From contig QBYL01000001.1 in NCBI GenBank assembly GCA_003282835.1, positions 1 to 64,000 on the forward strand: a stretch of DNA of 64,000 nt. Reading direction: 5' to 3'. The notes under the pieces are model-generated. The model did no database searches. It was not told where the DNA came from and saw only the letters and a program-made list of their open reading frames with translations. Positions 3,291-7,744 of the stretch are shown in pieces; position 1 is the first letter of the stretch, and every line of letters begins with the position of its first letter. This DNA comes from Pelagibacteraceae bacterium AG-325-J13. GTDB taxonomy: Bacteria; Pseudomonadota; Alphaproteobacteria; Pelagibacterales; Pelagibacteraceae. A program made the position numbers and the translations under genes.

Positions 3291-4346
3291 ATGAAAAACA
3301 TAATCAAAACTTTATTCGTTATGTTAACATCTTCTTCTTTACTTTTTGCTTCAGCAAATGCTGGTGAATTAAGTGTAAGTGGTACTGCGAAAGCAACTTA
3401 CAACATTCAATCAGGTGATGTAGCGGGTAAAGGTTTAGGTATAACTAATGAATTAAACTTTACGGCATCAGGTGAAACTGACGCTGGTTACGCATGGACA
3501 TACTCTATGGAGTTAGACCCTGCTGACACAGCTGCTGGTGGATCTGCACTTAACGATGATACAGCAATAACAATGTCAACTCCTTACGGAACTGTTGGTG
3601 TATTTATTCTTGAAGGTGCTTTAGATGTTGAAGATGCAGCATCACAGTCTGTTTACTCAAGACCAACAGATTCAGGTGATCCATCTGCTACAACAGATAA
3701 CTTTACAATCGACTCTTATAACAACGTACAATATCATACGCCAGCAGACTTGTTGCCGTTTGGTATGACTGCTAAAATTGCATACGCTCCAGACTTAGAC
3801 ACAGCAAACGGTTCTGGAAACAATGCAGGCGCTGCTATAACTGAAGGCGGTGCAGCGTTCGCTGGTAGATCTGCTACAGAATATCAAGTAAAAGCAACTC
3901 CAATTGATGGTTTAAATGTTGGTGCTTCTTACATGGAATTCAAAAAAGCAGGTGCTACGAAAAAAGACCAAGCTCCAGAAAGTGGTGCATACTTTGCTAC
4001 TTACGCAATGGGGAACGCAACAATTGGTTACTCAAAAGGTTTGAGAGCTAACTTAGTTGCTGACAGTGCGAACACAGGTGCAGATTACTACGATCAGACT
4101 AACATGTCTGTTTCATTAGCTGTTAATGATGATTTATCACTTTCTTACGAAGAAGAAAGATCAGAAGCTAATCAAAACGTAGATAGCACTGCAGATGTAG
4201 AGCAAAAGTCTACAGGTATTCAAGCTGCTTACAATATGGGCGGAATGACATTAGCTTTGTCATTTAACTCACATAAAAACATAGGTTACTCATCAACAGC
4301 AGTAGATGTTGACCAAATGTTAATGGCAGTGACACTTGCGTTTTAA
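3291..4346 (+). CDS. major outer-membrane porin
   Basis: General porin of the outer membrane, probably the main diffusion channel. The 351-residue protein begins with a signal peptide (basic start, hydrophobic core, cleavage after ASANA at residue 24). It continues as alternating beta-strand sequence rich in Gly, Ala, Thr, Tyr and Asp. It ends in the C-terminal phenylalanine (LAF) typical of beta-barrel proteins recognised by the BAM complex. Unlike its neighbours it is alanine/glycine-rich and lysine-poor, as expected for an abundant exported protein. It is a single-gene unit: a 219-bp spacer with a palindrome precedes it and a strong intrinsic terminator follows. Its substrate selectivity cannot be read from the sequence. 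Confidence 0.9.
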   Translation: MKNIIKTLFVMLTSSSLLFASANAGELSVSGTAKATYNIQSGDVAGKGLGITNELNFTASGETDAGYAWTYSMELDPADTAAGGSALNDDTAITMSTPYGTVGVFILEGALDVEDAASQSVYSRPTDSGDPSATTDNFTIDSYNNVQYHTPADLLPFGMTAKIAYAPDLDTANGSGNNAGAAITEGGAAFAGRSATEYQVKATPIDGLNVGASYMEFKKAGATKKDQAPESGAYFATYAMGNATIGYSKGLRANLVADSANTGADYYDQTNMSVSLAVNDDLSLSYEEERSEANQNVDSTADVEQKSTGIQAAYNMGGMTLALSFNSHKNIGYSSTAVDVDQMLMAVTLAF

Positions 4347-4942: not shown

Positions 4943-5593
4943 ATGAATAAAATAGTCGATAGATTTAATATAATACAATCCAATATTAAAAAAGATAAAA
5001 ATTTCAATAAAATTAAAATTGTTGCTGTAAGTAAAACTTTTGAATTAAATCATATAAAACCTTTAATTGACCATGGTCATGTACATTTTGGTGAAAACAA
5101 AGTTCAAGAAGCTGAAATTAAATGGAGAGACTTTAAAAGCAAAAACAAACAAATTAAATTACATATGGTAGGAAAGCTACAAAATAATAAAGCTAAAAAA
5201 GCTGTAGAGTTATTTGATTATATACATTCTTTAGATAGCCAGAAATTAGCTGACACTTTGTCAAAAAGTCAATTAGCTATAAATAAATCGTTAAAATATT
5301 TTATTCAGGTAAATATTGGAAACGAAAATCAAAAGTCAGGTATACCTTACAATGAGGTTGATGCCTTTTACACTTACTGTAGAAATGAAAAAAAAATGGA
5401 AATAATTGGATTGATGGCTATTCCACCAAACGATGAACATACTAATAAATATTTTAAAAGCTTGTCAGAGCTTAATACTTCTTTAGGTTTCAAGGAATTA
5501 AGTATGGGCATGTCAGCAGATTATATGAAAGCAGTAAATTATAAATCAACATTTTTGAGAATAGGAAGTTCAATTTTTGGGGAAAGAATTTAA
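4943..5593 (+). CDS. yggS: YggS-family PLP homeostasis protein
   Basis: Single-domain PLP-binding protein (PLPBP/COG0325) that helps control free pyridoxal phosphate and amino/keto-acid balance; it has no established catalytic reaction. The PLP lysine is K31 in IVAVSKTF. Other family blocks are HFGENKVQEAEIKW, HMVGKLQNNKAK, VNIGNENQKSG and GLMAIPP, and the C-terminal STFLRIGSSIFGER. Length (216 residues) is normal. The start codon touches the divergent TenI-like start, forming CATATG with no spacer. A TATAAA sequence lies 8-13 bases upstream, compatible with a leaderless transcript. The 3' end overlaps the convergent transpeptidase gene by 4 bp. Confidence 0.93.
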   Translation: MNKIVDRFNIIQSNIKKDKNFNKIKIVAVSKTFELNHIKPLIDHGHVHFGENKVQEAEIKWRDFKSKNKQIKLHMVGKLQNNKAKKAVELFDYIHSLDSQKLADTLSKSQLAINKSLKYFIQVNIGNENQKSGIPYNEVDAFYTYCRNEKKMEIIGLMAIPPNDEHTNKYFKSLSELNTSLGFKELSMGMSADYMKAVNYKSTFLRIGSSIFGERI

Positions 5594-6081
5594 CTAATTT
5601 TTACCAAAGTTTTTTTATTTATCATCGAAGCTATTTTTTTTATACTAATTTTTCTAATTGCTATACACCCTGCAGTTTTTTTAAAATTATTTTTTGCGAT
5701 ATGAATAAAAATTGCACTCCCTTTATTTTTTATTATTGGACTCATATTGTAGTTTAGTACTAATATAATATCGTAAGTATTTTCAGTTCTATGGAGTTTT
5801 TCTGCACTATACTTAAAAGGTAAATTAATAAGTTTATTATAGCAAACAGATCTAGGGTCATCACACCATCCCATGCTTTTATTTATAGCAATTTTTTTAA
5901 TTTTGGTTTTAAGGTTAGATATTCGATCTTTTCTGTAAAGAATGAATTTTATCTTAAAAAGGCCTCTTGGGGTTATTAAATCACCTTCTTTTTTTTTTAC
6001 ATTAATTCCTCTTTTGCCAATCGCACATTTTACTTTATAATTGTCTATAGACAGATATTTATTTTTAATGTGAATACGCAT
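5590..6081 (-). CDS. YkuD-type L,D-transpeptidase domain protein (no signal peptide)
   Basis: A 163-residue protein consisting almost only of a YkuD (L,D-transpeptidase) domain. Conserved parts are CAIGKRGINVKKKEGDLITP, a basic middle segment and the catalytic motif with His126 and Cys138 (FIHIA...AGCIAI). It matches the short alphaproteobacterial subfamily that likewise lacks a recognisable signal peptide. Whether it acts on peptidoglycan in the periplasm or on another acyl-transfer reaction is therefore unclear. Its start codon is immediately adjacent to that of the divergent response regulator (CATATG again), and its stop overlaps the yggS stop by 4 bp. Confidence 0.8.
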   Translation of the reverse strand: MRIHIKNKYLSIDNYKVKCAIGKRGINVKKKEGDLITPRGLFKIKFILYRKDRISNLKTKIKKIAINKSMGWCDDPRSVCYNKLINLPFKYSAEKLHRTENTYDIILVLNYNMSPIIKNKGSAIFIHIAKNNFKKTAGCIAIRKISIKKIASMINKKTLVKIS

Positions 6082-6705
6082 ATGATTAATGTTTTATCAT
6101 TTGGTCCAGAAAAGTTTAACACTTCATTAGAGGAACTTAAAGATTTTTTCAATTTTAACTTAAGGTTAAACTCAAAGAATCCAAAAAACGATTTATTACA
6201 AAATTTTGACATATTAATTATACATGAGGATATTTTTAAAGAAGTTGCTGATGCTCGAAATATGATCAAAAAAATAGATAAAATTAAAATTCTTGTTCTA
6301 AAGCCGAATTCAAAACCAGCTGAACAATTTAGTAGTAATTTATATCTACCTTTAAATATAAAAGATATTAATAAAATTATAGAAAATTTAATTGCAAAGA
6401 AAAATTTTTCAAAGAACTCATCGATTAAAATAAGGGAATACATTCTTAATAAAAATGAAAAGAAATTATTAAGATTTAATGATTTTATAACTTTAACAGA
6501 AAAAGAAATTCAATTATTAGAACTTCTTTTAACAAATAAAAAATCAGTTCATAAAGATGAAATTCTAAAAAAAGTTTGGAAATATGCAAAAGACGTTGAT
6601 ACACATACTATAGAAACTCACGTATATAGATTAAGAAAAAAGATTAAAGATAAATTTTTTGATGAAAAATTTATACGCAATAATAAAGATGGTTATTCTC
6701 TATGA
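6082..6705 (+). CDS. OmpR-type winged-helix regulator with degenerate receiver
   Basis: A 207-residue DNA-binding regulator. The C-terminal part (about residues 125-205) is a clear OmpR/PhoB winged helix: LTEKEIQLLELLL, a DEILKKVW helix, the recognition segment THTIETHVYRLRKKI and a terminal wing ending NNKDGYSL. The N-terminal part looks like a receiver-domain remnant: FDILIIHED stands where the phospho-acceptor strand would be, with His instead of Asp. Phosphorylation-independent action is therefore likely. I chose the ATG at 6082 adjacent to the divergent start; a GTG at 6070 is possible. It overlaps the ArfA-like gene by 4 bp (ATGA), suggesting translational coupling. No partner kinase is nearby. 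Confidence 0.8.
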   Translation: MINVLSFGPEKFNTSLEELKDFFNFNLRLNSKNPKNDLLQNFDILIIHEDIFKEVADARNMIKKIDKIKILVLKPNSKPAEQFSSNLYLPLNIKDINKIIENLIAKKNFSKNSSIKIREYILNKNEKKLLRFNDFITLTEKEIQLLELLLTNKKSVHKDEILKKVWKYAKDVDTHTIETHVYRLRKKIKDKFFDEKFIRNNKDGYSL

Positions 6706-6809
6706 GAAAAAGAAATAAGATAGCGTTTGATTTATTTTCAAAAAAATATCGAAAACGCATTGTTAAACCAAAAAAGGGTAAAGGAAGTTTTAGACGAAAA
6801 AAAAAATAA
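6702..6809 (+). CDS. arfA: ArfA-like alternative ribosome-rescue factor (35 aa)
   Basis: A 35-residue, very basic protein. It contains YRKRIVKPKKGKGSFRRK, which lines up without gaps with the core of E. coli ArfA (FRQRV...KKGKGSYMRK), and further upstream shares an Asn, Ala and Leu at matching spacing. ArfA enters the empty mRNA channel of stalled ribosomes and recruits RF2 to release the peptide. This gene stops right after the KKGKGS(F/Y)xRK core, so it lacks the hydrophobic tail of full-length E. coli ArfA. The start overlaps the upstream regulator stop (ATGA). The last three lysine codons form a run of ten A (6797-6806) just before the stop. The convergent adenosine kinase ends 3 bp away. 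Confidence 0.72.
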   Translation: MRKRNKIAFDLFSKKYRKRIVKPKKGKGSFRRKKK

Positions 6810-6811
6810 TT

Positions 6812-7744
6812 CTATTTATCTAGTCTTGCTCCAATTATTTGAATTACTTTTGAAGACATTTCGGTCCCAGTTTCTAAACTTTCCTTTGTTGTCTTGTTAT
6901 TTATAAATCCATGTAAAAAACCGCCCGCAAATAAATCACCTGCTCCTGTTAAGTCCTGAATGTTAAGGTTTGTTTTTGCAGGACACTCTAAAACATTTCC
7001 TTTATTAATTGCAACAGCTCCTTTATCTCCTCGAGTTATTACTATTAATTTATTAATTTCTTTTGCAAAATTAATTACATCTTCAAAGTTTTTTACATCT
7101 ATTAGTGACATAATTTCTTGTTCATTAGCAAAGGTAATGTCTAATTTATTTTTCACTAATTCAAGAAAATGAGGTTTATGTCTTTCTACGCAAAATAAGT
7201 CTGACAATGACATTGCAACTTTTTTGGAACTACTTATTGCTTTTTCAAAAGCTTTTTTTGGCTCACCTTCATCCCAAAGATATCCCTCTAAAAATAAGAT
7301 TTCACTGCTCTTAACTGCGTTTGTATTAATATCATTTTCATTAATTTTACCCGCAGTTCCAAGAAAAGTAATCATAGTTCTTTCAGAGTCTGGTGTAATT
7401 AATATTAGACAAGTCCCCGTTGAAATTGCCTCTTTTTTTTTTGAGTAGAAGAATTCAACATTTTCTTTTCTTAAACCATCTTCATATTTGTTGCCTAAAT
7501 CGTCATCACTTACCTTACCAATAAAGCCAACTTTATTCCCGAGTTGTGAAAGACCTACTATTGAATTTGCGACTGACCCACCAGAAACAGTTTCTTCTAT
7601 TTTAAGAGTTAATAATAATTTTTTAAATTCAGCTTCGTCCACAAGCTTCATAGTACTTTTTGTTAAATTATTCTGAGTGATAAACTCTTCATCAACTTTA
7701 CAAATAACGTCTACAATAGCGTTGCCAATTCCTAAGATTTTCAT
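6812..7744 (-). CDS. adenosine kinase (PfkB-family sugar kinase)
   Basis: PfkB/ribokinase-family kinase of 310 residues, most similar in layout to alphaproteobacterial adenosine kinases, which convert adenosine to AMP for purine salvage. It has the N-terminal GIGNAIVDVIC block, the substrate-binding SGGSVANSIVGLSQLG segment, GKVSDDDLG and TGTCLILITPDSERTM. The C-terminal anion-hole/catalytic motif is GAGD at residues 267-270 within DLTGAGDLFAGG. Substrate cannot be proven from sequence alone; another nucleoside or sugar is possible. It is the last gene of the minus-strand run downstream of nth, separated by 4 bp. Confidence 0.82.
   Translation of the reverse strand: MKILGIGNAIVDVICKVDEEFITQNNLTKSTMKLVDEAEFKKLLLTLKIEETVSGGSVANSIVGLSQLGNKVGFIGKVSDDDLGNKYEDGLRKENVEFFYSKKKEAISTGTCLILITPDSERTMITFLGTAGKINENDINTNAVKSSEILFLEGYLWDEGEPKKAFEKAISSSKKVAMSLSDLFCVERHKPHFLELVKNKLDITFANEQEIMSLIDVKNFEDVINFAKEINKLIVITRGDKGAVAINKGNVLECPAKTNLNIQDLTGAGDLFAGGFLHGFINNKTTKESLETGTEMSSKVIQIIGARLDK

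Follow-up and report, generated by a model that had tools for sequence, protein, structure and literature searches.

The arfA-like locus of a SAR11 genome

Whether SAR11 bacteria possess the alternative ribosome-rescue factor ArfA, and in what form, is the question raised by a very short open reading frame at positions 6702-6809 of the window analysed here, the 64-kb stretch at the start of contig QBYL01000001.1 from Pelagibacteraceae bacterium AG-325-J13. The first-pass annotation had read this frame as a minimal ArfA gene, while recalling that ArfA is described mostly from beta- and gammaproteobacteria. The literature bears out the latter point, as a review confines ArfA to certain members of the beta- and gammaproteobacteria (PMC8012679), and in a survey of 15,259 genomes with nucleotide profiles arfA was scored in none of 2,376 alphaproteobacteria (PMC11633108). 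The literature searched yielded no report of arfA in SAR11 itself; gp30 of the pelagiphage HTVC027P has been reported as ArfA, and the part of that account available to us mentions no host arfA (PMC12753301). The features of the locus are as follows.

6702-6809, plus strand: arfA-like gene, 35 aa (MRKRNKIAFDLFSKKYRKRIVKPKKGKGSFRRKKK), TAA stop; identified from the translation, the Pfam match and conservation in the genus
6744-6797, plus strand: ArfA core, residues 15-32, KYRKRIVKPKKGKGSFRR; identified from Pfam, the PDB match and the E. coli alignment
6702-6705, plus strand: ATGA overlap of the arfA-like start codon with the TGA stop codon of the regulator gene
6082-6705, plus strand: upstream regulator, 207 aa, with an OmpR-type C-terminal winged helix (PF00486)
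6812-7744, minus strand: pfkB-family sugar kinase, convergent; fixed right-hand neighbour in most loci
5590-6081, minus strand: L,D-transpeptidase-like gene (YkuD, PF03734), divergent from the regulator; in the conserved block
4943-5593, plus strand: yggS-like PLP-binding protein (PF01168); in the conserved block

Only 2 bases separate the arfA-like gene from the convergent pfkB-family gene, and the motif KKGKGS[FY] occurs a single time in the six frames of the window. The N-terminal half of the regulator gave no Pfam match, and no receiver domain was recognised in it or in the relatives scanned. The regulator and its YkuD-like neighbour are retained across the order.

Homology to ArfA

The 35-aa protein matches the Pfam family PF03889 (ArfA) with an E-value of 1.2e-6 and 28.3 bits against a cut-off of 25.5. 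In a six-frame search of its whole genome the window gene is the sole match, at 25.3 bits (E 1.2e-5), just under the cut-off, and the same type of search recovered a match above the cut-off in 24 of 61 relatives' genomes. When 19 SAR11 proteins were combined into a profile, a PDB search with it recovered the ArfA chains of E. coli ribosome structures (E-value 4e-5), pairing SAR11 residues 16-34 with residues 25-43 of E. coli ArfA without a gap. Extended without gaps, the SAR11 peptide corresponds to residues 10-44, with 16 of 35 positions identical, the E. coli numbering being anchored by the PDB profile alignment. The annotated claim of an ArfA core in gap-free register, with the protein ending right after it, is therefore upheld by both the profile score and the alignment. 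NCBIfam holds no matching model for the SAR11 peptide, and PHROGs returned only weak matches to unnamed families. We considered ArfB as an identity for the frame and rejected it, the mark of ArfB being a GGQ-bearing RF-1 domain of some 140 aa that the frame does not contain.

The basic C-terminal region with its KKGKGS motif is present in the SAR11 peptide as judged from sequence, KKGKGSF and R32 being invariant across 78 loci. In the patch that binds RF2, E. coli F25 is matched by an aromatic residue, Y16, kept in all 78 loci; provided the gap-free alignment is right, D10 and K15 stand where E. coli has L19 and L24, and the position of E. coli A18, where an A18T substitution inactivates the E. 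coli protein, is variable (K/I/L/F/V/Y). At the level of homology, the reading of the gene as an arfA is supported.

A conserved gene overlapping its regulator

The comparison set comprises 81 loci, namely the window and 80 loci from named genomes. The ATGA overlap with the regulator gene, proposed in the first-pass annotation as translational coupling, is seen in the window and recurs as an NTGA start/stop overlap in 79 of the 81 loci, its TGA closing, in 76 of 78, an upstream frame that runs for 150 codons or more. The reading frame stands beside the same regulator across the genus and the family, and the block order yggS, YkuD-like gene, regulator, arfA, pfkB is kept in most loci examined; in genera g5 and g11 arfA lies 1.5-2.4 kb away from the regulator.

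The encoded protein is 34-43 aa long, with 35 aa in 55 of the 81 loci. Twenty residues are invariant among the 19 sequences of the profile, and over 78 loci R4, N5, D10, L11, K15, Y16, R19, P23, KKGKGSF and R32 never vary and A8 nearly never does. The frame has a pN/pS of 0.133 over 78 loci and a median dN/dS of 0.096, by comparison with a higher pN/pS of 0.294 for the last 60 codons of the regulator, and the other two frames are interrupted by stops in 65 of 78 and 78 of 78 loci. The conservation of the frame is therefore beyond chance, and the ORF is a real gene. Of the two outcomes that the first-pass annotation named as grounds for rejection, loss of the frame in related genomes and an insignificant ArfA profile score, neither occurred.

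Distribution

The named matches belong to Pelagibacteraceae, including HIMB058 and PRT-SC02. Across the order a match was found in 283 of 397 genomes; among those at least 95% complete, our tally of the listing gives 49 of 59 Pelagibacteraceae, the family of the window, and 0 of 3 genomes of a sister family, while in the remainder of the class sample (also genomes at least 95% complete) there were 8 matches, weak and scattered. Gene loss was considered for six genomes of the window's own genus and rejected: in five of them (G021, G024, G004, G009 and G022) the adjoining pfkB orthologue is missing too, and in the sixth (G250) the pfkB match ends at residue 222 of 310, so that the own-genus absences checked look like assembly gaps in which the locus was left unassembled. 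Some complete genomes of genus g6, where the regulator and pfkB are almost adjacent, are truly without arfA. Several complete Pelagibacter genomes have no arfA, and the gene is therefore not universally required; G066 and G067 are two complete genomes without it.

A short form, probably outside nonstop-mRNA control

In E. coli and Bacillus, arfA and brfA depend on nonstop mRNA for their expression, and tmRNA keeps them silent (PMC3989581, PMC6881298). The SAR11 gene itself encodes the short form, as had been annotated: the hydrophobic C-terminal tail that makes E. coli ArfA unstable is absent, a search of 79 loci for a 3' hairpin found none above the shuffled background (mean folding z +0.38, and -0.24 within the ORF), no terminator was found and Rfam gave no match. 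Because hairpin, terminator and tail are all lacking, the SAR11 gene lies outside the E. coli-type, nonstop-regulated class and is a member of PF03889 only; its level would therefore depend on the regulator transcript and on translational coupling, and its production should be independent of nonstop mRNA. The long run of A at the ORF's 3' end (10 A in the window) was considered as a slippage signal and set aside, as runs of 5-10 occur across the loci and give no ground for favouring slippage over AT bias.

Residues 1-9 of E. coli ArfA, which belong to its N-terminal minidomain, likewise have no counterpart in the SAR11 peptide. At the other end the peptide stops at the position of E. coli K44; according to the passage of PMC5378476 that cites Chadani 2011, E. 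coli ArfA truncated after N47 is active and shorter forms are inactive, which puts the SAR11 peptide below the minimum active length given there for the E. coli protein. Its extra terminal lysines may compensate.

Partner genes and other rescue factors

The first-pass annotation described alphaproteobacteria as better known for ArfB and tmRNA; this clade keeps tmRNA and lacks ArfB. Of 61 genomes searched for alpha_tmRNA, 50 contain it, and none of the 16 near-complete ones lacks it; the window's own genome has it with the tag ANESYALAA. SmpB is encoded in 20 of 20 near-complete genomes and was not found in the window's own assembly, which is 81% complete. No ArfB was seen in the genomes searched, whether with or without arfA, and ArfB as a substitute in arfA-less Pelagibacter was rejected on the same ground. 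The clade has RF1 and RF2: across 78 genome searches the frames with an RF-1 domain are of RF1 or RF2 size, apart from two short pieces of 265 and 223 aa that come from a single draft genome in the sister family. SAR11 RF2 retains V198, F217 and W319, the residues of E. coli RF2 that ArfA contacts (PMC5378476).

In addition, a stretch of the window's own genome (L321, C1:243500-250300) contains three repeats of about 74 nt (at 321-393, 3431-3504 and 4949-5022) that lie on the ssrA strand, keep cargo genes apart and share the last ~23 nt of ssrA (GGCACCTGGCAACAGAACGCCCC). The repeats have the appearance of stacked attachment sites belonging to an island that integrated at ssrA, and extra partial tmRNA matches of a similar kind occur near ssrA in many SAR11 genomes.

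Comparison with known rescue systems

With E. coli ArfA (YhdL; gamma- and betaproteobacteria, PF03889) the SAR11 protein shares the gap-free core, the KKGKGS channel motif, an aromatic residue at F25, the equivalents of R26 and R28, the basic C-terminus and an RF2 with the contact residues. It differs in being 35 rather than 72 aa long, in the absence of the hydrophobic tail, the RNase III hairpin or terminator and the first 9 residues, in the apparent replacement of L19 and L24, in the overlap of its gene with a regulator gene and in its alphaproteobacterial host. Francisella tularensis ArfT, compared here by its description, is likewise about 40 aa long, with its stop codon in place, no hairpin and a KKGG-type basic tail, but on sequence grounds ArfT has been judged to be no relative of ArfA, has no equivalent of F25 and works with RF1 or RF2 (PMC6299226), whereas the SAR11 protein matches the ArfA profile. 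Bacillus subtilis BrfA has a similar RF2-dependent logic and inserts its basic tail into the mRNA channel (PMC6881298), but is unrelated in sequence and is made from a nonstop mRNA through an internal terminator. Factors of this sort are species-specific (PMC6881298). Closer at hand, gp30 of pelagiphage HTVC027P is a PF03889 protein with the core NPVAKEVRTPKYKSQIIKPKKGRGSFKR, although it differs from the SAR11 protein in being phage-encoded, by a gene that adjoins the small terminase gene, and in its length of 58 aa, which includes an N-terminal extension.

Proposed function and alternatives

We consider it probable that the gene encodes a genuine alphaproteobacterial ArfA that is always short, recruits RF2 to nonstop ribosomes and backs up tmRNA-SmpB in a clade devoid of ArfB. 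The observed basis of this proposal is the homology, the purifying selection, the synteny and overlap, the absence of a hairpin and the presence of the partner genes. Ribosome binding, RF2 recruitment and rescue are predictions drawn from what E. coli ArfA does: the empty mRNA channel would be filled by the basic half, and contact with RF2 would be made by the short N-terminal half, after which RF2 would hydrolyse the peptidyl-tRNA. Synthesis would be tied to translation of the regulator gene, through termination-reinitiation at NTGA, rather than to failure of trans-translation, and production would accordingly be constitutive. What counts against the ArfA reading is the end at the K44 position, the apparent replacement of L19 and L24, the variability at A18, the missing residues 1-9 and the existence of complete genomes lacking the gene.

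Since the hydrophobic patch specific for RF2 in E. coli appears altered, with D10 and K15 in place of L19 and L24, the peptide could sense the empty channel as ArfA does and yet recruit RF1 as well as RF2. The 40-aa, hairpin-free ArfT of Francisella, acting with either factor, offers a model for such action, but ArfT lacks a hydrophobic residue at F25 (PMC6299226) where the SAR11 loci invariably carry the aromatic Y16, and the SAR11 protein passes the ArfA profile; we regard this as unlikely. The same changes at RF2-contact positions, taken with the shortened N-terminus and the strongest conservation falling in the channel-binding half, could instead suit a peptide that binds the ribosomal channel in another role, such as slowing or parking ribosomes or blocking their rescue, and no longer activates RF2. 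Against this stand the conservation of the N-terminal half as well (R4, N5, D10 and L11 invariant, A8 nearly so) and the contact residues retained by SAR11 RF2. We know of no precedent for a channel-binding peptide of that kind, and hold such a role to be improbable.

That the frame is not translated at all, and that the regulator gene simply ends in a fortuitous ORF or in a conserved RNA element, might be argued from its extreme shortness and the want of an NCBIfam model, but is already contradicted by the in-frame pN/pS, by the stops in the other frames, by the lack of unusual RNA structure or an Rfam match and by the occurrence of related ORFs in unrelated contexts in phages, and we give it almost no weight.

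Relatives in marine phages

Marine contigs of IMG/VR yielded 128 relatives, the majority of which end in a stop codon of their own and contain the core NPxAK(E/D)(V/L)RTPKYxxRVVKPKKGKGSFKR; 4 of 5 tested passed the Pfam cut-off. Such genes are common in marine phage contigs (L188-L263; for example L202:4001-4126 and L246:3929-4120). In some T4-type phages the arfA-like gene separates clamp-loader genes 44 and 62 and stands beside the sliding clamp and RegA, and in others it adjoins the late sigma factor gp55 and gp47; isolated phages of Pelagibacter, Roseobacter, Caulobacter and Citromicrobium also carry arfA-like genes. HTVC115P gp18, which has no KGKGS, was left out of the count. In Roseobacter phage CRP-212 an unannotated ArfA-like ORF (L313:3001-3090) lies out of frame within the end of the large annotated gp38.

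The forms of genera g5 and g8 (MKKRNPIAEDLRSPKYKKR... and MKKRNPIAKDLRTPKYKKR...) resemble phage forms, which suggests an exchange of arfA between hosts and phages, the direction being beyond the resolution of 30 residues. In a contig classed as viral that carries an HNH-type gene, an ArfA (L184:2592-2696) that hardly differs from the form of the SAR11 hosts stands with no regulator alongside, possibly a recent host-phage transfer. We put forward, tentatively and with more doubt than conviction, the broader idea that Pelagibacteraceae have no release-factor-type rescue backup other than the always-short ArfA, which replaced ArfB, and that an ArfA of their own, keeping host ribosomes free during takeover, recurs among the phages of SAR11 and of other marine alphaproteobacteria, including phages grown on seemingly arfA-less hosts (HTVC027P and HTVC034P on HTCC1062).

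Significance

Few bacterial groups are as abundant as SAR11, whose rescue toolkit had not been described as containing ArfA. If the ArfA reading is true, a short ArfA encoded directly and free of nonstop control would mean that the feedback circuit of E. coli and Bacillus is unnecessary for such a backup, and the relatives in marine phages raise the question of whether phages manage ribosome rescue during infection.
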